From a virus, in IMG/VR virus record IMGVR_UViG_3300047195_000698, positions 1 to 35,567 of that record: a stretch of DNA of 35,567 nt. One strand, 5' to 3'. Made by a program: the position numbers and the translations under genes. Under the pieces are notes generated by a model. That model saw only the letters and a program-made list of their open reading frames with translations. It was not told the DNA's origin and did no database searches. Positions 1-34,058 of this stretch are shown in pieces (position 1 is the stretch's first letter; each line of letters opens with the position of its first letter).

Positions 1-127
1 AAAGACTCAAGAGATGCTCACAAAACCACTCAAATAATTGGCCTGGGGCTACATGCCATCGGTACACTCAAATTGCGATTTGAGTGAAGCCGTAGAAGCC
101 CCATCCTTCAGGGTGGGGAGTAGTCAC
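1..127 (+). mobile_element. tnpB 3'-end / omega-RNA remnant, copy 1
   Basis: This stretch is identical over all 127 bases to 962-1088. Its 3' end (GAAGCCCC, short hairpin, GGTGGGGAGTAGTCAC) matches the layout of the 3' end of the intact tnpB element at 20608-20666 (GAAGCCCC, hairpin, GGTGGGGAGTGGTCAC). Frame 1 encodes a degenerate TnpB C-terminus: RDAHKTTQIIGLGLHAIGT aligns with RDQNAALNILRLGLQSLGQ of the TnpB at 19474. I read it as a decayed IS200/IS605-type right end that keeps the guide-RNA scaffold region. The left limit may lie outside the window. If transcribed, the bases after 127 would be the guide. Confidence 0.75.
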
Positions 128-3727: not shown

Positions 3728-4369
3728 ATGATTCTGTCGGGCCAGGATATCAAAAGGTTTGGGCTTCTTTTAAATGCTAAAGATAGTAACTATCAAGCTC
3801 AAGGTTGTGATATTCGGGTAGAAAAAGTTTTTAAAACTGTAAACAAACCCTTCGGAGAAAAGATAGTTGAAGAAGACTATGTTGAGCCCGTAGTTCAGCG
3901 AGAAAAAATGTTTAAATTTAATTGTACCGCTCAGGTATGGGGTGAAAATGATAAGTTTTTATACTACTGGATTCCACCAGAAAGTGCGGTTTTATTTAAG
4001 ATTATGGAGACGGCGGATTTGACTCCAAAACTCGATACAATAGGGGATGTTTGGGAAGAGTCTGGGAGAACGTGGAATAATATTCAACACATAACTCGTT
4101 ATTTCAACGCCTACATCCTCCCCAAATCTTCCCTCTCGCGCAGGGGCATCATAGTACACTCTGCCTGGTGGGATGCGGGATATAAAGGATCGGGGTTTGT
4201 ATTAGTAAAAACTACAGATAATCCGTTAAAGATAAAGCCGGGAGCAGAGTTTGCCCAGATGGTCTTTTTAGAGGGAACTCCAACAGAGAGAGTTTATGAG
4301 GGGCAGTATCAGGGAGAGAATTTGAGTCTTGAATCTTGTAGCGAGCTTATAGAATGTGTGTCTTCTTAA
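3728..4369 (+). CDS. dUTPase / dCTP deaminase family protein (213 aa)
   Basis: The protein belongs to the trimeric dUTPase/Dcd superfamily. The N-terminus MILSGQDIKR is typical of Dcd-like members. LPKSSLSRRGIIVHSAWWDAGYKG (about residues 137-160, shown in pieces: the PKSSLSRRG motif and the DAGYKG motif) corresponds to the nucleotide and catalytic motifs, and KPGAEFAQMVF near residue 175 to the next conserved motif. Family members hydrolyse dUTP to dUMP or deaminate dCTP; I cannot tell which. With ThyA at 15657 and the uracil glycosylase fusion at 23211 it fits a role in keeping uracil out of viral DNA. Confidence 0.8.
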   Translation: MILSGQDIKRFGLLLNAKDSNYQAQGCDIRVEKVFKTVNKPFGEKIVEEDYVEPVVQREKMFKFNCTAQVWGENDKFLYYWIPPESAVLFKIMETADLTPKLDTIGDVWEESGRTWNNIQHITRYFNAYILPKSSLSRRGIIVHSAWWDAGYKGSGFVLVKTTDNPLKIKPGAEFAQMVFLEGTPTERVYEGQYQGENLSLESCSELIECVSS

Positions 4370-8420: not shown

Positions 8421-8840
8421 ATGATTTTTAGGTGCGCGGGGATTGCGGATTCGATGAATGATGGGAGAGGTGCGGCGCTCGACATTTTTTTTCAGGGCTG
8501 TTCTATTGGGTGTAAAGGGTGTCATAACCCCGAACTGCAAGATAAGGATGGAGGATTTGAATTAGATACAGATGAAATAATAGAACATCTTGATAAACAC
8601 AAGGGTTTTTATGAGTCAATAGTGTTTTTAGGAGGAGAGCCGCTCAATCAGAGAGAAGTTGTAATAGATATTATAAATCGTGTGGACTTATATAAAGTTT
8701 TGTATACTGGTTACTTATATAAAGATATTCCTAATGAAATTCGGTCTGTTATGAATATGATAGTAGATGGACCTTATATAGAAGAATTGAAGACAGATGG
8801 ATTTCCGGCGAGCGAGAATCAGAGAATATATTACTTATAG
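8421..8840 (+). CDS. nrdG: Anaerobic ribonucleotide reductase activating protein
   Basis: This radical SAM enzyme makes the glycyl radical on NrdD. The [4Fe-4S] motif is CSIGCKGCHNP (C27, C31, C34), preceded by the usual GRGAALDIFFQG, and the SAM-binding GGEP motif lies near residue 74. At 139 aa it is slightly short, as phage NrdG proteins often are. It lies eight bases upstream of nrdD, the standard operon order reversed from many bacteria. Confidence 0.92.
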   Translation: MIFRCAGIADSMNDGRGAALDIFFQGCSIGCKGCHNPELQDKDGGFELDTDEIIEHLDKHKGFYESIVFLGGEPLNQREVVIDIINRVDLYKVLYTGYLYKDIPNEIRSVMNMIVDGPYIEELKTDGFPASENQRIYYL

Positions 8841-8848
8841 GTGATTTT

Positions 8849-10729
8849 ATGTTAATCGAAACAACTTTTAGTGAAGATTATGACAATCTTTATAACAAAT
8901 TTAATCAAAATGAGCATGGCAAAAAGCTTTTGGACATTGACGGAATTTCCCGAAGATGTTTAGATGTAGGTTCTATGTCCCACGCCTATTTTACCCAAAA
9001 TCTTTCAAACGTGACTATAGATAATAATGCAAACGCGGATGAAGGTATATCTCCTAATAATTATGGAAGTGAAATTGTCCGAGGAATTCAAAAATTGGAA
9101 GGATATTATTTAATTCATAGGTATGCGACAAAGAGGTTTGATTTAAAGAGGGCGAATGAACTCTTGCGTTCTATTTGGTTAGGTGATGTTTATTTCCATG
9201 ATAGTAGCGGAATCGGAGTGCAGCAGCCATATTGTTTTGCGGCAAGCACAACTATGATTATGTTAGAGGGCAGACCTTATGGGAATTTACATAGTTTACC
9301 CCCAAAACATAGCGAATCATTTATTGGACAGTGTATTGAGTTTACGATGGATTTATCTCAGGCGTTTGTAGGCGCAATAGCTCTTGGAGATTTTTTTGTA
9401 AACTTTGCTTGGTACTCTAAAAAGGAAAATTTATCAGATAAAACTATACAAAACGAGTTACAAAAATTTGTACATGTCGTTAATAATTCTTTTCGCGTAG
9501 GCGGACAATCTCCATTTACAAATCTTAGTCTTTTTGATAGACCAAATCTTGAAAAAGTTTTCGAACATCATTTATATCCTGATGGGTCAAAACCCGATTT
9601 TGATTATATTGTTCATATACAAAAAATATTTGCAGAGTGGTTCGCAAAAGGAGACCCCGCTAGTGGTTTTCCGTACCGCTTTCCAATTGTAACAATAAAT
9701 TTATTAACTGATTTAAATAAAAATATAGTTGACAAGGATTTCCTAGATTTTATTTCAAGAGTTAATCTAGAGAGGGGTTGTTTCAACATTTATGTAAATT
9801 CTGGTGAGAAGGTGGCCAGCTGTTGCAGGCTTATAAATGACTCTTCTCGAATGAATTTTAAATCGGATACTCTAGGAAATGGTGGAGTTCAAATTGGTTC
9901 TCATAGAGTTGTTACCCTTAATTTACCTAGAATAGCTCTAAGATCAAAAGGGGATTTAAAGAAGTTCTACTCAGAATTAGATACTATACTCGAAACTTCT
10001 CGGGATCTACTCCAAATCCACCGAGAAGAAATCCTACGGAGAAGAGTTGAGCGAGGATTTTTAAAATTCTTTGAGCCTCTTAAATGGTTTTCGCTTAAAC
10101 ATCTGTTCTCCACTGTAGGCATAATAGGAGTTAGTGAAATGAATAAGTTAATGGGGTTTGATATAACATCTGAAGATGGAACTCAATTTACTCTTGATGT
10201 TCTTAATTATATCGAAGATTTTGCTAAAAAGACAAGTATTGAAACTAAACATAGCTTTAACGTAGAGGAAATTCCAGGAGAATCGGTTGCGTCCAAACTT
10301 TGTCAGAAGGATAAGGTTATTTTCGGGGAAGATAAAGTTCCGTTTGAATTATATTCTAATCAGTATATACCTCTAATTGAGAATGTTTCCTTACCCGAAA
10401 GAATAATTACTACAGGAAAATTTATGGAGATTCTTTCTGGCGGAGGTATTTTACATCTGAATGTGGCGGAACAAATTAAAGATTCCACTATTATGAAACA
10501 TTTAATTGAGTATTCTGTTCAGAACGGGATATCACATATGGCCGTGAACTACGGTTTTGGTACTTGTAAAAACAGCCACACAACTATATGTGGAAATTCA
10601 CCAAAATGCTCGATTTGTGGAGAAGATATTGACGATTATGTTACAAGAATTATTGGATATTTCAGCAAAGTATCAAATTGGAGTAAAACGAGAAGACAAT
10701 TTGAGTTTCCCAAGAGGGTCTTCCAATGA
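8849..10729 (+). CDS. nrdD: Anaerobic ribonucleoside-triphosphate reductase, catalytic subunit
   Basis: It reduces NTPs to dNTPs with a glycyl radical, strictly without oxygen. The C-terminal radical loop is RIIGYF with Gly603; the four-cysteine zinc site that precedes it is C573, C581, C587, C590 (TICGNSPKCSICGED). Cysteines of the active site lie in CFAAST (near 132) and in ERGCFNIYVNSG (near 311). The 626 residues begin directly with the catalytic domain: no ATP-cone is seen, so dATP feedback control may be missing, as in other viral reductases. AGGTGAT precedes the start. It ends in an ATGA overlap. Confidence 0.93.
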   Translation: MLIETTFSEDYDNLYNKFNQNEHGKKLLDIDGISRRCLDVGSMSHAYFTQNLSNVTIDNNANADEGISPNNYGSEIVRGIQKLEGYYLIHRYATKRFDLKRANELLRSIWLGDVYFHDSSGIGVQQPYCFAASTTMIMLEGRPYGNLHSLPPKHSESFIGQCIEFTMDLSQAFVGAIALGDFFVNFAWYSKKENLSDKTIQNELQKFVHVVNNSFRVGGQSPFTNLSLFDRPNLEKVFEHHLYPDGSKPDFDYIVHIQKIFAEWFAKGDPASGFPYRFPIVTINLLTDLNKNIVDKDFLDFISRVNLERGCFNIYVNSGEKVASCCRLINDSSRMNFKSDTLGNGGVQIGSHRVVTLNLPRIALRSKGDLKKFYSELDTILETSRDLLQIHREEILRRRVERGFLKFFEPLKWFSLKHLFSTVGIIGVSEMNKLMGFDITSEDGTQFTLDVLNYIEDFAKKTSIETKHSFNVEEIPGESVASKLCQKDKVIFGEDKVPFELYSNQYIPLIENVSLPERIITTGKFMEILSGGGILHLNVAEQIKDSTIMKHLIEYSVQNGISHMAVNYGFGTCKNSHTTICGNSPKCSICGEDIDDYVTRIIGYFSKVSNWSKTRRQFEFPKRVFQ

Positions 10730-15656: not shown

Positions 15657-16421
15657 ATGCATCCCCTCTTCACCCCTGAAGAAAACTATGATTTTCTGAA
15701 CCATTCCATTAAGGCAGATTCTATAGCCTCCGCATACAAACAAGCCCTAACAACTATTTTAACCCACGGAATTGATTTCAAGGATGAGCGCGGGGATAAA
15801 ATGAAGACCCTTTTTAATTTGATGGTGACGGTTAAAAGGCCTCTGGAGGGGTTAGAAGAATTAGAAGAGATGCATAAGCGAGGTTTGTCTCCTTATAGTA
15901 GAGAGTTTTTAGATTCTTATGCAGATCAACTTATTAATGGCCCAAAAGAGAGCGAATACCCCTTTGAATATAATTATAATGAAAGATTGAGAAAAAGATG
16001 GTCCCGATTGGGTAAAAATGAGTTTCAATCTTTAGAGAATGATGAAGTAGTTGATTCAGAATATTTAGATCAAATAGACCAAGCAATCAAAAATTTGAAT
16101 AAAAATCCTAATTCAAGAAGAATTGTTTGTGTTACCTGGATTCCATCTGTGGATACTAGAAAAATTGATGTGCCTTGTTTGAACTACCTTGTATTTTATA
16201 ACATAAGCGGTAAGTTGCACCTAAGTGTAGCATTTCGCTCACACGATGTTTTCGGAGCGTATGCTTCAAATCTTTACGGGATATCGCGACTATTGGAATA
16301 TGTGGCCTTAAGGACGGGTTTGAAAATAGGAACTTTAACCGTAATTTCTGTAAATGCTCACTACAACAGGTTGTTCGAAGAGGATGTAATTCGGATAATA
16401 AAATATAAAAGGCGGTGTTAG
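15657..16421 (+). CDS. thyA: Thymidylate synthase, ThyA family (254 aa)
   Basis: Converts dUMP to dTMP using a methylene-folate or archaeal pterin donor. Recognised from the conserved half: NSRRIVCVTW near residue 155, catalytic Cys174 in DVPCLNYL, the phosphate-binding RSHDVFGAY, SNLYGISRLLEYVA containing the asparagine that selects dUMP, and VNAHYN. The short length and the DVPCLNYLVFY wording resemble the methanogen-type ThyA rather than bacterial ThyA. The asparagine argues against dCMP hydroxymethylase. Pairs logically with the dUTPase-family gene at 3728. Confidence 0.85.
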   Translation: MHPLFTPEENYDFLNHSIKADSIASAYKQALTTILTHGIDFKDERGDKMKTLFNLMVTVKRPLEGLEELEEMHKRGLSPYSREFLDSYADQLINGPKESEYPFEYNYNERLRKRWSRLGKNEFQSLENDEVVDSEYLDQIDQAIKNLNKNPNSRRIVCVTWIPSVDTRKIDVPCLNYLVFYNISGKLHLSVAFRSHDVFGAYASNLYGISRLLEYVALRTGLKIGTLTVISVNAHYNRLFEEDVIRIIKYKRRC

Positions 16422-18359: not shown

Positions 18360-19058
18360 ATGTCCGTCAAAGTCCTAGGCAGAAAAGCCTACCATAGAAT
18401 TCCTCACCTTTCTCAAGGGAGTCATTTGGGCGCGGGAGATTTTAGAATTTCTGAAGGACAGAGCAAAATCTGCACCGAGAAAGCAAGGAAGGGTGATTAT
18501 ATAATTTGCCAGGAAAAATTAGACGGCACATCCGTAGCAGTAACACGAAAAGATGGAATTTTAATACCAATAAATCGCGCGGGCTATGAGGCCATAAGTG
18601 CTAAATGGAAACAGCATCACCTTTTCGCTAACTGGGTTTATAAAAATTTAGATCATTTTGAGTTTTTAGAAGAAGGACAACGGCTTTGTGGTGAGTGGCT
18701 GGCTCAAGCCCACGGAACTTTATATAATTTAGAACATATTCCGTTTGTAGCTTTTGATCTAATTGGACCAGGCGGGGTTAAAGTGTATAATGATTTTGAC
18801 TCTATTGTGCCTAATTGGTTTCCAAGGCCTTATTTGCTTCATCAAGGTGGGCCTTTTTCTATTCAAGATGCAGAAAATGCGATTGGGGAACTTGGACATC
18901 ATGGAGCTACTGAATTAGCCGAAGGCGTTGTGTGGAGGGTAGAGCGAGACGGAAAAATAGAGTTTATGGCTAAGTATGTTCGAGGGAGCAAAGTAATTGG
19001 TAAGTATCTAGATGGCGAAATAGAGGTTTGGAATCTTGGACTGGAGAAGTGGATTTAA
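18360..19058 (+). CDS. RNA ligase, Rnl2-like nucleotidyltransferase (232 aa)
   Basis: ATP-dependent ligase that joins RNA ends through lysine adenylation. Motif I EKLDGTS with K53, motif III GEWLAQAHG near residue 117, motif IIIa FVAFDL near 134, motif IV AEGVVWRVE near 193 and motif V FMAKYVR near 209. The HLSQGSHLG start and short length fit the T4 Rnl2/viral RNA ligase group, without an OB fold. RNA repair, such as tRNA resealing after host cleavage, is the usual proposal; the true substrate is unknown. Confidence 0.82.
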   Translation: MSVKVLGRKAYHRIPHLSQGSHLGAGDFRISEGQSKICTEKARKGDYIICQEKLDGTSVAVTRKDGILIPINRAGYEAISAKWKQHHLFANWVYKNLDHFEFLEEGQRLCGEWLAQAHGTLYNLEHIPFVAFDLIGPGGVKVYNDFDSIVPNWFPRPYLLHQGGPFSIQDAENAIGELGHHGATELAEGVVWRVERDGKIEFMAKYVRGSKVIGKYLDGEIEVWNLGLEKWI

Positions 19059-19442: not shown

Positions 19443-20666
19443 ATACTATGAAGTACATAATACCAAGAGTCCTATGACTAAGAAAACCTATAAATTTAGG
19501 ATTTTTCCTTCTAAGGAACAAGTCCGTATCTTGAACGAGACGCTTGATCTTTGTAGGTGGACCTATAATCAAACCTTGGCTTACAGAAAGAACCTTTGGG
19601 AAACTGAGCAGAAAAATACATCTAAGTACGATTCTCATTATTTGCTCCCTATTTGGAAACAGGAAAAGCCGGAGCTAAAAAATGTATTCTCACAGGCGCT
19701 CCAGAATGTTCAGGAAAGAGTAGACTTGGCTTTTCAAGCATTCTTCCGTAGAGTAAAGGCTCACGAAAATCCGGGCTATCCTAGATTCAAGGGAAAGGGT
19801 TGGTATGATAGTTTTACCTATCCTCAGTCTGGGTTCGGACTTAAAGATGATAAGATCCTTTGGCTTTCCAAGATTGGTGAAATCAAGATAAAACTTCATA
19901 GAAAAATTGAAGGCACAATAAAGAGGCTTACGATCAACAGATCAACACGAGGAAAGTGGCATGTGTCTTTTTCTGTAGAACAACGGTTAAATCACGATTT
20001 AACTGAACCCCAGGTTTCACACAGCGATTTGGTTATAGGCATTGATCTTGGTTTAACTAGTTTCGCCACTTTCTCGGACGGTAGCAAAATTGAGAACCCT
20101 AGGTTTTTTAGAATCGAAGAAAGGGCGCTCTCTAAAACCCAATCCAAAAGAGATAAGTTGCCGAAGGGTTCGTTAGAGAGGAACAAAGTAACTAAAGTTG
20201 TACGAAGAATTCATGAGAGAATTGCCAATAAAAGGCTGAATTTCGCACATCAACTCAGTCATGATTTGGTGGAGAAATACGGAATTCTTTGCTTTGAAGA
20301 TTTGAATATAAAAACCATGATGCAGACTGCTCCGCGCAGTCTAGCCAAGAGCATATCCGACGCTTCTTGGAACTTTCTAGTAAGACTAACACAGTACAAG
20401 GCTGAAAGTGCTGGTAGTGTAGTGGTTTTAGTAGATCCAAAGAATACGTCCCAAATGTGCTCAAGGTGCGGGGTAATTGTACCCAAAGACCTCTCTGTTC
20501 GAGTCCATAAATGTACTTGTGGATTAGAAATGGATAGGGATCAAAACGCCGCATTGAATATTTTGAGACTGGGACTACAGTCTCTCGGCCAAATAAAACG
20601 GGTCGTAGAAGCCCCGCTCTTTCACCCGAATTGTTATTCGGGTGCTTTAGGGTGGGGAGTGGTCAC
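19426..20666 (+). mobile_element. TnpB-only IS200/IS605-type element
   Basis: The left limit is set by TTAAGCGAAAAGTATAAATA (19426-19445), identical to 897-916 in the non-autonomous element; the right limit by the GGTGGGGAGTGGTCAC omega-RNA end shared, with small changes, with 1-127 and 962-1088. It carries tnpB but no tnpA transposase, so movement would need one supplied elsewhere. Exact ends are uncertain by several bases. Confidence 0.7.
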
Positions 20667-20685
20667 ACTTAGCAAACCTATATAG
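19474..20685 (+). CDS. tnpB: TnpB RNA-guided nuclease
   Basis: TnpB proteins are RNA-guided DNA endonucleases, ancestors of Cas12, using an omega RNA from the element's right end. The N-terminus (KFRIFPSKEQVRILNETL, RWTYNQTL) is the usual helix-turn-helix region. The RuvC-like residues are present: D191 in GIDLG, E275 in FEDLN, and DRDQNAALNIL around D356. The zinc ribbon is CSRCG (near 329) with CTCG. The 403-aa protein appears complete and active. A TATA box (AAAAGTATAAATAC) is about 32 bases before the ATG. The last 30 codons overlap the omega-RNA region. Confidence 0.93.
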   Translation: MTKKTYKFRIFPSKEQVRILNETLDLCRWTYNQTLAYRKNLWETEQKNTSKYDSHYLLPIWKQEKPELKNVFSQALQNVQERVDLAFQAFFRRVKAHENPGYPRFKGKGWYDSFTYPQSGFGLKDDKILWLSKIGEIKIKLHRKIEGTIKRLTINRSTRGKWHVSFSVEQRLNHDLTEPQVSHSDLVIGIDLGLTSFATFSDGSKIENPRFFRIEERALSKTQSKRDKLPKGSLERNKVTKVVRRIHERIANKRLNFAHQLSHDLVEKYGILCFEDLNIKTMMQTAPRSLAKSISDASWNFLVRLTQYKAESAGSVVVLVDPKNTSQMCSRCGVIVPKDLSVRVHKCTCGLEMDRDQNAALNILRLGLQSLGQIKRVVEAPLFHPNCYSGALGWGVVTLSKPI

Positions 20686-23103: not shown

Positions 23104-23210
23104 ATTGTTCGAGAGAAATAAAATTTATAACGGAGAGGCTTGATTGACTTGAATAAATCTTATTGCGAAATGGCAGAAGGAAGAATAAACAGTATTTAGG
23201 ATTGATAATT

Positions 23211-26200
23211 TTGGATCTCAAAACTTTATCTCAAGAAATCAGAAATTGCAAGAAATGTAGCCTTTGTGAAACTAGAACCAATGTCGTTATCGGTAGAGGG
23301 GTTCCAAATCCAGAAGTGCTTTTCGTGGGCGAGGGACCAGGGGCTGAGGAGGATCTCCAAGGCAAGCCATTTGTTGGAAAATCTGGTATATTATTGGATC
23401 GATGTATATCGGAAAACGGAATTAAGAATTTTGCGATCATAAATATAGTAAAATGCCGCCCGCCCGAAAACAGGAAACCAACATCAGAAGAAGTAAAGGC
23501 TTGTAAGCCTTGGCTAGATCAGCAAATAGAACTACTGAGCCCGAAAATAATTGTTTGCCTTGGGGCAACGAGCTTAAATTATTTCTTCCCAGACAAAAAA
23601 ATATCCGAAGTTGCTGGTCAAACCCTAACTGATAGTAAAGGTCAAAGGTATGTCGGACTTTTCCATCCATCGTTCGCTTTGCGTGGGTCAATAAAAATTG
23701 AGGATTACATAAAATCCTACGGAAGAATAAACTTTTTTCTTGGGGATGGACAAACACGTAGCCTCTCTGAGGCTACGTTGCCAGCCCGATTAGAGAAATC
23801 GGGCGTGAGGGAAGCCCTGGTCGGGGACCCATTACCTTCGCCTATAAATTCTCCAATCCCGCCAAGTCCTAAGCCTAGCGCACCCTTACCCACAGGATCG
23901 CAGGCATATGTTCCGCTGCACGTTCATTGGGAACGTGGTAGTATCGGCGATGTTTTTGGAACTGACGCAGAAAGAGCGGAAGATCTTGCTCAAAAAGGAT
24001 TCACCGCAGCAGCTATTACAGACCACGGAAGCCTAAGTAGCTTAATTTACGCTCAAACCGAGTTAAAAGCGAGAGGGGTTAAGCCTATTCACGGACTCGA
24101 ATGTTATATCGATGAAGGCGAACGCGCCCAAAGCCACCTCGTTCTTTTGGTGAAAAATGAAATTGGGTACTCCAATTTATTAAAACTTCATACTCTATCT
24201 AAACAAAATACGCACAAAGTATTCTCAAAAATCTATCAGAAGTTAACTATAGATGAAATTTGTGCTCACTCTGATGGTTTAATCTGTTCTACTGCATGTA
24301 TCTCCGGAACCCTAGCCCGCCGCTGGAGAAGAGACGAACCTGAACTTGTAGACCCCCTTATTAGAAAACTACAGGCGGCGTTTGGCAATGATCTTTATCT
24401 CGAGCTTATGCCAAATCGCCTTGAAGAGCAATCTCGCTTCAACGAATACTTATTAGGACTATCTAAGATTTATAATATTAAAATGATTATTACTACAGAT
24501 AGCCATTACAATTCCAAATCAGATAGAATATATCATAATATTCTAAAAGCGATTAATTTTAAATCTACAATGGAAAATCAAGGTCAGAAGAAGTGGAGAC
24601 CTCCGGGATTTGGAGATGATAGTTTTTGTACCCTGACGACCGAGGAAATTACAGAACTTTTAAAAACCAATCACCCTAAGATTTATCCCATTCGGGACGA
24701 ACTATTTGCAAATACAATAGAGGTTGCGAATAAGTGCAATTTTGAGATTCCAGAGAACTTGGGTGATACTTTAATAGGTGGTGAACAAGAATCTCGTCAG
24801 AAGATTTTGGATCGGATGGACATCGAAAAATATAAAGAAGAAACTAAACACGATTCTAAAGTAGTAGATGATCGAATCGAAAAAGAACTCAAACTTATAT
24901 TTGATAGAGGTTTTGCAAAGTACTTTGATAAAGTTCTTGACATGTGTGACTACGCAGATGAGAATGAAATACCTCGAGGACCTGGAAGAGGCTCAGTGGG
25001 GGGATCACTAGTTGCTTACTTATTAGGAATAACAAAGGTTGATCCTCTAAGGTTCGGAACTCTCTTTGAGCGGTTTCTTTCTCCTACTAGAACTCCAGAT
25101 ATAGACATGGACTTTTCGGGCAAAAAAAGGGGTTCTGTAATAGGCCATTTAAAGGCCCGATATGGAGTTGGTAACGTTAGTTATGTCATCACTTTTTCAG
25201 AGTTCCAAGATCGGGTCGTCTTAAGGGACGTAGGAAGGGTTTATAATGTCCCAATAGAAGAAATCGGAAAAGTAACAAAAGAGTTGGCTACAAAGACCGC
25301 AGAGGATATTAAAATTGAGGATGCTTTGCTAGTATCCGATGTTGTGCAGCAATTCAACAAGAAATATCCTCAAGTAATAGATGCGGCCCTTAAATTACGG
25401 GGAAAGATTCGCCATATTGGAATCCATGCCGCTGGGGTAGTTATTTGTGACCACCTGCAAGAAAGAATCCCTACAGAAATTTATGATAAGGAAGATTCTA
25501 AAAATAGTCTAGTTACGAGCTGGGAAAAAGATGCCCTGGAGAAGATGGGTATAATTAAATTTGATGTCCTTGGAATATCTGTTCTTGATGTTATTGATGA
25601 ATGTCTTGGGGGAGCGGGGATAGGATGGAATGATTTACCCGAAGATTATAATGATCCAAGAGTATTCGAATTATTAAAATCTGGCAAGACAGCAGGTATA
25701 TTCCAGTTCGGATCTCAGTTGGTTACGGATTATTTGAGACATTTGAATCCTGATAAGTTTGAGGACCTATTATCTGCAAACGCATTATGTAGACCAGGAC
25801 CTTTAAGAGGCGGAGAATCTGCTCATTATATAGATAGAAAAAACGGGAAGGCGTGGGAATATAATCATTCTTTACTTGAAGGGATAACAAAAGATACTTT
25901 AGGGATTCTTGTTTATCAAGAACAAGTAATGCAAATTGCAAACCAGATTGGCGGATTTAGTATGGTAGAAAGCGAACGGTTTCTTAAACTTGTAAGTAAG
26001 AGTAAAGGAAGAGAAGCTATGCAAGAGAAGTATGATCAATTTTTATCTGGAGCAATAAAAAACGGTGTGTCAAAAGAAATAGCAGAAGATTTATTTCAAA
26101 AAATGTTAGAGTTCGGTGAGTATGCTTTTAATAAAATTCATTGCCTAGAATACTCAATGCTCGGCTACTGGACCGCGTGGCTTAAACTCTATTACCCCTT

Positions 26201-27263
26201 AGCCTTTTATTCATCTCTAATAAATAACGAAGGCGACGAGACAAACGTTCTTAAATATGTAAAAGAGGCGACCGATACGGGAGTTATTATTAAACCCCCA
26301 TCAATTGAATCTCCGGCGGAAAAATCTACTTTTGACCTTAAAACCAATACACTTTATTTTGGACTGAATAAAATTAAAGGAATTGGTCCCGCAGAAATTG
26401 AGAAAATAATTGAAGCGGGCAAGAATTTTGAAAAAATAAAGAAAGTTAGAAAAAATGTATTCGAAACTCTAGTAAGTATAGGATATTTAGATAGTATTGA
26501 GTCCAACAGGAAGCAACTCTTAACAGGCAAAGAACTATCTAGAAATACCTTATTTGCCTGGGCAGAGAATAAAAATGAAGATTCGTGGCCTGAGGAAGAG
26601 AAGTTAATAAGAATGAGAAAATATCTTACCTGCTGGCCTAGGACAGAAAGCGAACTTTTGAAAACGGAATATGAGGATAAAAGAAAAAGTCTGAGTATTT
26701 TAAAAGAGGAAGAGATTGAGAACAAAGCCTTCTTGTCTGTAGGTTGGGTATATGATTCCAAAGTCTATAATAACAGCTTTGGGAAGAGTATAGTCCTAAA
26801 ATTTGAGGACGGGGTCGATAGAGTTGACCTGTACCTATCCGATCACCTTTATGAAGCTAAAAAAGAATTCATAGACGACTTGATTGAGAATCCAACTAAA
26901 AATCAGGTTATGTTCTGCCTGCACCCGTATTTTCAAACTAGAGGAAAAGTTGAAACTCGAAGCGGGAAATTAAATGTGATGTGGGCGGGTCGCACAGATG
27001 ATGTGCTCCCAGATAGTATTTTAAGAGGCATGGACTTCGATAAAATCGAGCTAAAAGAAAAAGAGTATCTGATTACAAATATCGGCTACGGAACCTCGAA
27101 GGCAGGAAACAAATACTGCACCGTGGAGACTATAGATTGTGATGAAAATGTTACTAATGGGGTGTTAATGTTGAAGGGGATTCCGTATCCACCACAGTTA
27201 GGAACTATATTAAAAGGAACCTGGAGAAAATCTGACGCTGGGACGTTCTTTAAGGGGGAGTAA
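23211..27263 (+). CDS. Uracil-DNA glycosylase (family 4) fused to DnaE-type DNA polymerase III alpha (1350 aa)
   Basis: Residues 1-180 are a complete family-4 uracil-DNA glycosylase: [4Fe-4S] cysteines 13, 16, 82 and 98, motif GEGPGAEED (40-48) and HPS (152-154). A proline-rich linker (181-230) contains two DNA hairpins. The polymerase follows: PHP domain (HVH at 237-239, ITDHGS), palm with GPGRGS near 593 and catalytic D632 and D634 in DIDMDF and D785 in KFDVLG, fingers (CRPGPLRGG, YQEQVMQ, FNKIHC), a helix-hairpin-helix (KGIGPAEIEKI) and a C-terminal OB-like domain. All catalytic residues are present. TTG 23211 is chosen because it gives DLKTLSQEIRNCKKC, the normal glycosylase start; TTG 23163 would add 16 odd residues. 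Confidence 0.93.
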   Translation: MDLKTLSQEIRNCKKCSLCETRTNVVIGRGVPNPEVLFVGEGPGAEEDLQGKPFVGKSGILLDRCISENGIKNFAIINIVKCRPPENRKPTSEEVKACKPWLDQQIELLSPKIIVCLGATSLNYFFPDKKISEVAGQTLTDSKGQRYVGLFHPSFALRGSIKIEDYIKSYGRINFFLGDGQTRSLSEATLPARLEKSGVREALVGDPLPSPINSPIPPSPKPSAPLPTGSQAYVPLHVHWERGSIGDVFGTDAERAEDLAQKGFTAAAITDHGSLSSLIYAQTELKARGVKPIHGLECYIDEGERAQSHLVLLVKNEIGYSNLLKLHTLSKQNTHKVFSKIYQKLTIDEICAHSDGLICSTACISGTLARRWRRDEPELVDPLIRKLQAAFGNDLYLELMPNRLEEQSRFNEYLLGLSKIYNIKMIITTDSHYNSKSDRIYHNILKAINFKSTMENQGQKKWRPPGFGDDSFCTLTTEEITELLKTNHPKIYPIRDELFANTIEVANKCNFEIPENLGDTLIGGEQESRQKILDRMDIEKYKEETKHDSKVVDDRIEKELKLIFDRGFAKYFDKVLDMCDYADENEIPRGPGRGSVGGSLVAYLLGITKVDPLRFGTLFERFLSPTRTPDIDMDFSGKKRGSVIGHLKARYGVGNVSYVITFSEFQDRVVLRDVGRVYNVPIEEIGKVTKELATKTAEDIKIEDALLVSDVVQQFNKKYPQVIDAALKLRGKIRHIGIHAAGVVICDHLQERIPTEIYDKEDSKNSLVTSWEKDALEKMGIIKFDVLGISVLDVIDECLGGAGIGWNDLPEDYNDPRVFELLKSGKTAGIFQFGSQLVTDYLRHLNPDKFEDLLSANALCRPGPLRGGESAHYIDRKNGKAWEYNHSLLEGITKDTLGILVYQEQVMQIANQIGGFSMVESERFLKLVSKSKGREAMQEKYDQFLSGAIKNGVSKEIAEDLFQKMLEFGEYAFNKIHCLEYSMLGYWTAWLKLYYPLAFYSSLINNEGDETNVLKYVKEATDTGVIIKPPSIESPAEKSTFDLKTNTLYFGLNKIKGIGPAEIEKIIEAGKNFEKIKKVRKNVFETLVSIGYLDSIESNRKQLLTGKELSRNTLFAWAENKNEDSWPEEEKLIRMRKYLTCWPRTESELLKTEYEDKRKSLSILKEEEIENKAFLSVGWVYDSKVYNNSFGKSIVLKFEDGVDRVDLYLSDHLYEAKKEFIDDLIENPTKNQVMFCLHPYFQTRGKVETRSGKLNVMWAGRTDDVLPDSILRGMDFDKIELKEKEYLITNIGYGTSKAGNKYCTVETIDCDENVTNGVLMLKGIPYPPQLGTILKGTWRKSDAGTFFKGE
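23756..23804. repeat. Two perfect palindromes in the interdomain linker
   Basis: ACGTAGCCTC, TCT, GAGGCTACGT (23756-23778), and GCCCGATT, AGAGA, AATCGGGC (23784-23804) lie in frame in the coding sequence of the linker between the glycosylase and the polymerase. Two adjacent perfect stems in coding DNA are unlikely by chance and may mark a former palindromic insertion. Confidence 0.65.
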
Positions 27264-31656: not shown

Positions 31657-32760
31657 ATGTCTAAAGAAACTATTTTTGATATACTTTCTTCTTTAGAAGA
31701 AATATACTCTAAGGCTTTTCAGAATTTAGAAAAAGGTATCTTCAACAAAAAGTATGAACATAAATTAAAAATAAGAGAATATAAACATCAAAATTATCTT
31801 CAAAATAAAGAAAAAATTCTAGAAAGATCGAGAAAGTGGACAAAAGATAATAAGGAACATGCCAAAGAAACCAAAAAAATATATTACCAAAAAAATAGCG
31901 AAACAATAAAGCAAAAAGTAAAAGATTGGTCTGAAAACAACAAGGAATGGATAAAAGAACAAAGAAAAGATTTTAGATCTAAAAATAAAGAGTTATTGAA
32001 ACAAAGAACGAAAGAGTACAGATTGAAAAACCCAGAAAGAGTAAAAGAACTCTCTAAAAAGTCAGCGGAGAGGAGAAAGGATAAAATTAAAATTTATAAA
32101 GATAAATATTATATAGAAAATCGAGAGTGGATTCTTGAAGAACAAAAAGAACGAACCGCCGCAAGATTTAAGGAACGCTTGCAAATTAGAGTGGATATTT
32201 TTAATTTATTTGGTGGAAAGTGCGCGTGGTGCCCCGAGAACGATTGTGATGTTTTGGTTATAGACCACATTAACGATGATGGGGCGGCAGACAGAAAAGA
32301 AAATAAAATACGAGGTGGATTCAAAATTGTAGAGAGACTCATCAAAAGAGGGGTATCAGAAACTGATCTTAAACAAAAATATCAATGTTTGTGCGCAAAC
32401 CATAATTCTATTAAGCAATATAAAAAATACTTTGATTTACTCGATAGTGAACTAACAAACGCACAAAGATACAAAATAAAATTATGGAAAGAAGCTTTTA
32501 ATTTCTTCGGACCTTGTAAAATGTGTAAAGAATCTAATTTAAAATGTCTCAGCATTGATCATATACACGGAAATGGAAACGAGAAAAGAAAAAATGGAGA
32601 ACCGGTGGGAACGACGTTATTGGGCAAATTTAGACAAATGGGATGGCCGGAATCTATAAAAGAGGAATATCAACTTCTTTGTTTTAATTGTCATTATGGA
32701 CGAAAGCCAAAAATAAAGAATCCAAATCTTTCTGTAAGGGCTCTGTTAGAAACAATTTAA
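31657..32760 (+). CDS. Tandem-HNH endonuclease-like protein with repeat arm (367 aa)
   Basis: Residues 30-165 are lysine-rich repeats of about 12 residues (NKEKILERSRKW, NKEWIKEQRKDF, NKELLKQRTKEY), as in homing-type endonucleases. Two HNH-like zinc domains follow: CAWCPENDCDVLVIDHIND with CLCANHN, and CKMCKESNLKCLSIDHIHGNG with CFNCH. Both keep the IDHI histidine and paired cysteines. It stands alone between replication and virion genes, under a leaderless promoter, which fits a free-standing mobile nuclease. Confidence 0.75.
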   Translation: MSKETIFDILSSLEEIYSKAFQNLEKGIFNKKYEHKLKIREYKHQNYLQNKEKILERSRKWTKDNKEHAKETKKIYYQKNSETIKQKVKDWSENNKEWIKEQRKDFRSKNKELLKQRTKEYRLKNPERVKELSKKSAERRKDKIKIYKDKYYIENREWILEEQKERTAARFKERLQIRVDIFNLFGGKCAWCPENDCDVLVIDHINDDGAADRKENKIRGGFKIVERLIKRGVSETDLKQKYQCLCANHNSIKQYKKYFDLLDSELTNAQRYKIKLWKEAFNFFGPCKMCKESNLKCLSIDHIHGNGNEKRKNGEPVGTTLLGKFRQMGWPESIKEEYQLLCFNCHYGRKPKIKNPNLSVRALLETI

Positions 32761-32765
32761 CTTTT

Positions 32766-34058
32766 TTATGGTGCGATTATATCTGCCATAGCCTCTATAA
32801 TATTGTCGCCTGAAGCTATTTTATCCATTGCTTTGTTAATAGCGGGATCTACGCGAGGCTGGACTTTTTCGCCAGTAAAATCTTCTTCTAATCTTACCCC
32901 AATAACACAAGAATTAATCCAATTTCTGAACTCTTGTTGGCTAATATCGCCAATTTTTCTAGCATTAATCATAATTTGTAGTTCATTTTTTACATCTTTT
33001 GGTTCGACGGGCGCGGGCAAAATTTCATACCGGTAGCCTTGTTTTTTAAATCCATTCCAATCTAGCCAGTTATTTCCTATTTTATTCGCCTCTTTGCAAA
33101 ATTTCATCCTTCCAGATTGAATATATGCGAAGAAAGTTGAAACCTTAGCGGCAGCTGAAGAATTGTCCAAAAGCGCCCCGCCTTTGCCTTCTCCGCCATC
33201 TGAGAGCGCCGATATTGGAAATACGATCTTATAAAGCTCCCTTTGGGCAAAGGAGTAAAAAGAGAGCACATCTTTGCGATCGGAGTACTTAGGATGTTCT
33301 ATTTTCATATTGGATGGAATTGGAACCTTTTCTACTGCATTACTGCTCTCTAAGATCTTTTGAGCAATAGAATCGTTTCCAGGAAGGTTTTCATCGGTAA
33401 TTACCAGCTCAGAAGGGTTTAATTGCTGAGACATGACCACATAAATTAGATCGTAACTGAAGCTTGCTAAATCAAGGTATGGCAAAAGATACTCAAGTAT
33501 ACTTTCATCTATAAATCGTGAACCCAAAGGAGACAGCGAGAATACCTGTTTCGGATCGAGCGAAACTACCTGTCCAGATCTATCTCCATCAGCTATAGTT
33601 TGGTCAAAATGCAAAACGCCATTTTTGAAGTAGAGCCCTTTCCAGCGCAATGCGGTTGATGTTATCTTAGGGTCTTTAGGAGCGATGAAAGTGTCATAAG
33701 CTCGGCGCTCCATAGCGGTATAGTCTATATATCCAGACTCAGAGTTTTTGCCATATGCCATCTCAGCTATTCCGCGTCCACCCCTAAAAGCATCAGAGTC
33801 TGCAACCTGAGCCCAGCCGAAGAAATCTATATCATCTAAGTTCTCAGCAATATCGTGGCTCAGTTCAACGTCTACGTGACCTTTAGGGTCATAAACGTTG
33901 TGATAAAAAGGTTTAGAAAATTTCATTTGAGTATCTGTTGAACTCAATGCTTGAACCAACGGATTCATACTCGCCAGGAGCAAATCTCGATTCGTAACCC
34001 TTCTATTTAAAAGATTTTTCTCTAATCGAGATTGAACGTCTCCTTTAAAATCAGCCAT
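32766..34058 (-). CDS. Probable portal protein (430 aa)
   Basis: First gene of the minus-strand structural block. The layout, with an N-terminal helical start, a strand-rich centre and the late segment PISALSDGGEGKGGALLDNS before a helix rich in A and S (SAAAKVSTFFAYIQSGRM) and the acidic tail, resembles tailed-virus portal proteins, which form the 12-subunit ring for DNA packaging. Recognition is by overall pattern; no single decisive motif. Another virion protein is possible. Confidence 0.5.
   Translation of the reverse strand: MADFKGDVQSRLEKNLLNRRVTNRDLLLASMNPLVQALSSTDTQMKFSKPFYHNVYDPKGHVDVELSHDIAENLDDIDFFGWAQVADSDAFRGGRGIAEMAYGKNSESGYIDYTAMERRAYDTFIAPKDPKITSTALRWKGLYFKNGVLHFDQTIADGDRSGQVVSLDPKQVFSLSPLGSRFIDESILEYLLPYLDLASFSYDLIYVVMSQQLNPSELVITDENLPGNDSIAQKILESSNAVEKVPIPSNMKIEHPKYSDRKDVLSFYSFAQRELYKIVFPISALSDGGEGKGGALLDNSSAAAKVSTFFAYIQSGRMKFCKEANKIGNNWLDWNGFKKQGYRYEILPAPVEPKDVKNELQIMINARKIGDISQQEFRNWINSCVIGVRLEEDFTGEKVQPRVDPAINKAMDKIASGDNIIEAMADIIAP

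Follow-up and report, generated by a model that had tools for sequence, protein, structure and literature searches.

IMG/VR record IMGVR_UViG_3300047195_000698, a linear sequence of 35,567 bases that was analysed in full (the window) and is possibly a fragment, carries a gene whose product joins in one chain a uracil-DNA glycosylase (UDG) of family-4 type and a DNA polymerase of the DnaE type (family C). The principle of fusing a UDG to a replicase is already known; what is new is the order, with the UDG at the N-terminal end of DnaE and its active site intact, in a lineage apparently infecting archaea. We propose that the protein is the replicative polymerase of a methanogen virus and that its tethered UDG excises uracil from the viral DNA during copying, a reading to which we assign a probability of roughly 0.55. 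A preliminary description, drawn from the sequence letters, had already placed a UDG-DnaE fusion in a single frame of an apparently archaeal virus, and the results given below agree with it on both points.

On the + strand the reading frame begins at TTG 23211, ends with the stop at 27263 and is open throughout, with no internal stop. Another TTG lies upstream, at 23163, and would give a product of 1,366 residues; TTG 23211, the start also used in the preliminary description, is preferred, because two homologues described below begin at the equivalent position (MDLKEL in L391 and GTG-IKLDLKTL in L284). From the N to the C terminus the product consists of the UDG (residues 1-178), a linker (179-230) and the PHP, palm, fingers and helix-hairpin-helix (HHH) domains of DnaE. 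Pfam recognised each of these domains (UDG PF03167, E-value 2e-30; PHP, 4e-25; DNA_pol3_alpha, 3e-68; finger, 2e-42; HHH_6, 1e-9), and the curated NCBIfam cut-offs were exceeded for both enzymes, i.e. by UDG_fam4 TIGR00758 (154.6 vs 125.3 bits) and by polc TIGR00594 (684 vs 434 bits). The fusion protein stayed below the cut-offs of the UdgX and PolC models.

An AlphaFold2 model of residues 1-1190 had a mean predicted local distance difference test (pLDDT) score of 82, with values of about 90 in the UDG and the polymerase and below 50 in the linker (179-229). Foldseek matched the model to the bacterial DnaE 2hpi (E-value 7e-57) and to the family-4 UDG 1l9g (TMt 0.85); next to 1l9g, the best PDB matches included the family-4 UDGs 1ui0 and 4zbx. 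The chain is thus predicted to fold as two confident domains connected by a disordered linker.

As judged from its sequence, the UDG belongs to family 4, since in addition to exceeding the TIGR00758 cut-off it possesses the four Fe-S cysteines and both motifs A (G-E-x-P-G) and B (H-P-[SA]). Cysteines C13, C16, C82 and C98 align with those of the Thermus (1ui0) and Thermotoga (1vk2) family-4 enzymes, as do motif A, which reads GEGPG (E41), N78 and motif B, which reads HPS (152-154). The cysteines and the HPS motif named in the preliminary description, like the polymerase aspartates D632, D634 and D785, are therefore all present and align with solved enzymes or invariant motifs. The uracil-crosslinking UdgX was considered as another identity and rejected: its model, TIGR03914, scored 116.7 vs 189.95 bits, and the KRRRIH loop is absent, the site reading NRKPTSEEVKAC. 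The complete set of catalytic residues suggests that the window UDG excises uracil. The ratio dN/dS of the UDG, compared between L284 and L391, is about 0.15, which indicates purifying selection and, together with the intact catalytic residues, argues for a working glycosylase.

The polymerase is, on the evidence of its domains, of family C and DnaE type: it exceeds the family cut-off, has PHP, palm and fingers domains, and carries the three catalytic aspartates, which sit on the invariant DnaE motifs PDID.DF and K.D.LG. A replicase of the PolA kind found in other UDG fusions was rejected, as the family A domain is absent and only DnaE domains are present. The PHP metal ligands were assigned by alignment as H237, H239, D247, H272, E297, H309, C363, D430 and H432, the last two falling just beyond the end of the Pfam domain; the list corresponds to the ligand set of the self-proofreading DnaEs of Thermus and M. 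tuberculosis, and it points to a possible PHP proofreading exonuclease in the window enzyme. Profiles of DnaE tails, tried for an OB or clamp-binding region, gave no match in the C-terminal region. In the DnaE tree the window protein forms a long, isolated branch (end branch 2.5, with no close kin in the set), and its placement there is not trusted.

Homologues of the fusion were recovered first with the DnaE motif GSVGGS, which yielded L284, and then with the two-sequence alignment, which yielded L389, L391 and L392; an earlier single-protein scan of viral contigs had missed them, its 8-mer patterns lying in variable stretches. The L284 product (1,340 aa) and the window protein can be aligned over their full lengths, with 62% identity by BLAST and 64% in pairwise alignment, and shares its proline-rich linker, with the common pattern DPLPSP..SPIP..P.P..PLPTG. 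L389 also contains a full-length homologue, and L391 and L392 cross the UDG-DnaE junction. The fusion is thereby found in five independently assembled records, namely the window, L284/L388, L389, L392 and L391, of which L284, L389 and L392 come from three metagenome records and are identical over their overlap, while L391 is a variant. The 65.7-kb record behind L284, which is also linear and may be a fragment, is collinear with the window between about 2.4 and 34 kb, and shared proteins include NrdD (67% identical), a ligase (58%) and an SNF2 helicase (65%), among others. The fusion is therefore genuine and is retained by related viruses, and the chance that it is an assembly chimera or a pair of frameshifted neighbours, joined at the linker, is negligible, because the same junction and linker were assembled independently in other metagenomes and the frame is continuous.

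The preliminary description knew of no fusion of this kind, which proved too strong a statement. Chains of the UDG-exonuclease-PolA kind occur widely in phages (19 survey loci and dozens of GenBank phages); examples are SPO1 gp31, the polymerase of Thermus phage phiLo, and the proteins of Rhizobium RHph_TM/Y65 and Methanomicrobiales virus vir526. They resemble the window protein in having an N-terminal, family-4-like UDG and a viral polymerase in one chain, and most keep the catalytic residues. However, their polymerase is of family A, with a 3'-5' exonuclease domain, and is unrelated to DnaE, and their UDGs stand elsewhere in the UDG tree. The N-terminus of 9qhs, a solved chain of 1,142 residues named putative DNA polymerase I, matches the window UDG, and this protein appears to be of the UDG-PolA type.

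A second kind of fusion unites the same two protein families in the opposite order. When both domains were sought in one frame across viral genomes, the fusion recurred in the relatives of the window, whereas elsewhere it took the form of DnaE with a C-terminal UDG, seen in 44 proteins (5 from an initial set of 80 viral DnaE loci and 39 of 85 DnaE frames recovered by the GSVGGS motif). Those in the isolate phages RHEph10 (Rhizobium), nickie and ZY21 (both Pseudomonas) and hairong are annotated only as DNA polymerase III alpha. Apart from the position of the UDG, these bacterial-phage proteins differ from the window protein in forming a separate clade (support 99) and in their mostly decayed UDG active sites: about 6 of the 44 keep every catalytic position scored, and most lack the catalytic N and H, many of them still with the Fe-S cysteines. 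The 39 GSVGGS-derived loci (L268-L347, e.g. L335:5230-8664 and L310:2189-5932) present a graded decay of the UDG on bacterial-phage DnaEs.

In the UDG tree, the window type (support 94), the type at the C-terminus of DnaE and the PolA types fall into distinct groups, with weak deep branches. The annotated phage records contained no place covering 80% of the fused protein, and the listed UDG matches inside phage DnaE genes lay, where checked, at the C-terminal ends. Among the sequences searched here, the window lineage is the only one with an N-terminal UDG on DnaE; no paper on a UDG-DnaE fusion was found in literature searches, which reached few subscription journals. Human-faecal records labelled 'Bacteriophage sp.' (MT83xxxx; L007-L011, L013 and L014) were set aside, as housekeeping-type genes surround their UDG or DnaE and their flanks resemble bacterial chromosome. 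As regards the separate enzymes, Thermotoga TM0511 (1vk2), Thermus TTUDGA (1ui0) and the Sulfolobus tokodaii UDG (4zbx) have the same family-4 Fe-S fold and residues (TMt 0.85-0.86) but are free-standing. Thermus DnaE 2hpi, M. tuberculosis DnaE 7pu7 and E. coli alpha 5fku share the PHP-palm-fingers-HHH architecture and the catalytic aspartates; these bacterial DnaEs are about 30% identical to the window polymerase and carry no UDG, and profiles of the DnaE tails tried did not match the window's C-terminal region.

The host is, from sequence comparisons, very probably archaeal, most likely a methanogen of the Methanotrichaceae or one related to them. The TnpB of the window shares 58-68% identity with those of Methanothrix, Methanosaeta and Methanocrinis, followed by those of other methanogens, and its best phage match is vir525 of Methanosarcinales; the 65.7-kb relative breaks off within a TnpB, whose remaining 37 residues are 78% identical to the window protein. 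Towards its left end, the window contains two direct and nearly identical copies (about 65-131 and 1026-1092) of a right end of IS200/IS605 type (CCCATCCTTCAGGGTGGGGAGTAGTCAC), with no adjoining tnpB. They match, at 83-95%, the sequence immediately following tnpB in Methanothrix and related genomes, and this right end is present in many copies in Methanotrichaceae genomes. Window positions 1-63 are also repeated, near 960-1024. Mobile elements alone are insufficient to settle the host; an archaeal one is well supported because, besides the TnpB and the right ends, the thymidylate synthase is of methanogen type, TIGR03283 fitting it far better than do other models of this enzyme, with a score of 166 that falls slightly short of the curated 174.6. 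The relative also encodes PTH2, an archaeal/eukaryotic-type peptidyl-tRNA hydrolase (L400:533-910), an unusual virus-borne translation gene.

Promoter signals do not suggest a bacterial host either, since sigma-70-like sites in the first 20 kb were at chance level (60 vs 55.9 +/- 7.5) and archaeal TATA-like boxes preceded 6 of 15 gene starts of our own selection vs 1.3 in shuffles (p about 0.002). A DNA search of 50 Methanotrichaceae genomes gave no CRISPR spacer or provirus match, and no DnaE match was found in 238 genomes of the class; the methanogen genomes tested do have a free UDG, about 40% identical to that of the window. Neither the window nor those proteins of the 65.7-kb relative that were scanned include a recognisable capsid, portal or terminase, so the status of 'virus' rests on IMG/VR and on gene content.

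Based on these observations, we suggest that the flexible tether of about 50 residues would hold the UDG at the viral replication site, where uracil, either mis-inserted as dUMP or arising by deamination of cytosine, would be cut from the viral DNA as it is copied. The main substrate would most likely be newly synthesised duplex, next to the polymerase or behind it, because uracil cut from a single-stranded template would leave an abasic site for whose repair no complementary strand is at hand; host enzymes could then finish base-excision repair. A disordered tether speaks for a raised local concentration and against docking at a fixed position. That such fusions have recurred, apparently independently, on two unrelated replicases argues for selection of closeness to the fork; judging by sequence, the UDG-PolA and DnaE-UDG pairings look like separate gains. 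The dUTPase/dCTP-deaminase-type, thymidylate synthase and ribonucleotide reductase genes on the contig are compatible with control of dUTP, and their products may act on the same problem at the level of the nucleotide pool. It is the enzyme activities, their coupling and the identity of the substrate DNA that we infer here.

Several points weigh against uracil removal, the proposed role of the fusion. Most C-terminal phage UDGs are decayed, so a replicase-attached UDG can persist for a non-catalytic reason, and no virus-coded apurinic/apyrimidinic endonuclease or clamp was recognised. Thymine-modifying or thymidylate-synthase (ThyA-family) genes were found at none of 46 DnaE+UDG loci, compared with 7 of 19 UDG-PolA loci, so the part assigned to the nucleotide pool is at best specific to the window virus.

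The main rival, which we regard as unlikely, is that the UDG serves mainly as a DNA-holding module that confers processivity, with excision secondary. The precedent is vaccinia D4, a UDG that is also a processivity factor and is likewise part of a viral replication complex (PMC10253040). Such a role would suit the phage C-terminal UDGs that often retain the Fe-S cysteines and lose the catalytic N and H, and also the lack of a recognised clamp gene in the window or the relative, given that an archaeal host offers PCNA and not the bacterial beta clamp. Nevertheless, the window lineage keeps all catalytic residues under purifying selection, which is beyond the needs of simple DNA binding. The pox polymerase belongs to family B, and D4, a processivity factor, is a separate polypeptide serving a polymerase unrelated to DnaE.

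The coupling favoured in the preliminary description, i.e. template checking, is one of several conceivable couplings and not the most likely; it keeps a small share of the probability, smaller than that of the processivity role. According to it, the UDG would inspect the template and, on meeting uracil, halt or flag the fork, thereby standing in for the read-ahead sensing by which archaeal family B replicases stall at template uracil. Family C enzymes have no such sensing; in favour of the idea are the use of DnaE by the virus and the intact active site of its UDG. However, excision in the single strand would create an abasic site that, with no complementary strand, would block or break the fork, and a disordered linker does not position the UDG at the template entry.

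It is improbable that the UDG is simply a functionally independent repair enzyme whose joining to the polymerase only secures co-expression. Although the disordered linker and the abundance of standalone phage UDGs are in line with such an arrangement, the apparently separate gains on two unrelated replicases, in both orders, are hard to explain in this way.

Returning to the proposed removal of uracil by a tethered UDG, it may be extended, tentatively, to a self-policing replicase: the uracil-sensing B and D replicases of the archaeal host would have been replaced by a bacterial-type polymerase and surveillance restored by the active tethered UDG, the same solution having arisen separately on the phage UDG-PolA and DnaE-UDG proteins. 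The joining of uracil removal to a replicase emerges as a recurrent viral strategy, seen with two unrelated polymerase families, at either chain end, and both in bacterial viruses and, apparently, in archaeal ones. Methanogens rely on polymerases of families B and D and lack a beta clamp, and the finding indicates that a lineage of their viruses has a family C replicase of bacterial type. It raises the questions of how such an enzyme can be processive and can proofread in an archaeal cell and of whether it takes over the uracil sensing of the archaeal polymerases. The window and L284 proteins are compact single-chain enzymes on which this may be tested.

Table 1. Coordinates of the fusion gene, its domains and other genes discussed in the window.
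Feature	Position	Strand	Basis or remarks
UDG-DnaE fusion gene	23211..27263	+	1,350 aa from TTG 23211; domain matches, full-length homologue
Family-4 UDG domain (predicted)	23211..23744	+	residues 1-178; Pfam, NCBIfam and PDB matches, signature table, pLDDT ~90
Pro/Ser-rich flexible linker	23745..23900	+	residues 179-230, ~50 aa; alignment, pLDDT <50 at 179-229
PHP domain	23901..24410	+	Pfam; alignments to DnaE
DnaE palm/NTPase domain	24831..25574	+	PF07733, 3e-68; D632, D634 (25104-25112), D785 (25563-25565)
DnaE fingers domain	25629..26066	+	PF17657, 2e-42
Helix-hairpin-helix (HHH_6)	26280..26519	+	PF14579, 1e-9
C-terminal region, ~247 aa	26520..27260	+	conserved in L284; homology to OB tails or UDGs not detected
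dCTP deaminase/dUTPase family protein	3728..4369	+	best NCBIfam model dUTPase NF002598
Anaerobic ribonucleotide reductase	8421..10729	+	NrdG-like (8421-8840), NrdD (8849-10729)
Thymidylate synthase, methanogen type	15657..16421	+	TIGR03283, 6.5e-49
TnpB, IS200/IS605-type element	19474..20685	+	closest to Methanotrichaceae TnpB; absent here in the collinear relative

Beyond the part that it shares with the window, the relative encodes an 800-aa primase-polymerase (L397:6844-9243, - strand) that combines a CHC2 zinc finger with a helicase-like P-loop region and may be a partner of the UDG-DnaE protein in replication. A 430-aa protein (window 32769-34058, - strand) is about 73% identical to its counterpart in the relative, which places it among the most conserved shared proteins, and it had no match in Pfam, PHROGs or PDB. 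Its reading by eye as a portal was abandoned, as profile searches were empty and AlphaFold gave a pLDDT of 31 from a shallow alignment. Related HNH-type putative homing endonucleases occur in the window (31657-32760) and in the relative (L399, record 55044-55820), where the copy lies directly upstream of the UDG-DnaE gene. The relative's RNA-ligase-family protein (L399:9681-11387; window 18360-19058) contains an intein (Intein_splicing and LAGLIDADG) within the KxDG active-site motif, with the junction EKLDG^C...HN^SS, and the window allele, EKLDGTS, is free of it.

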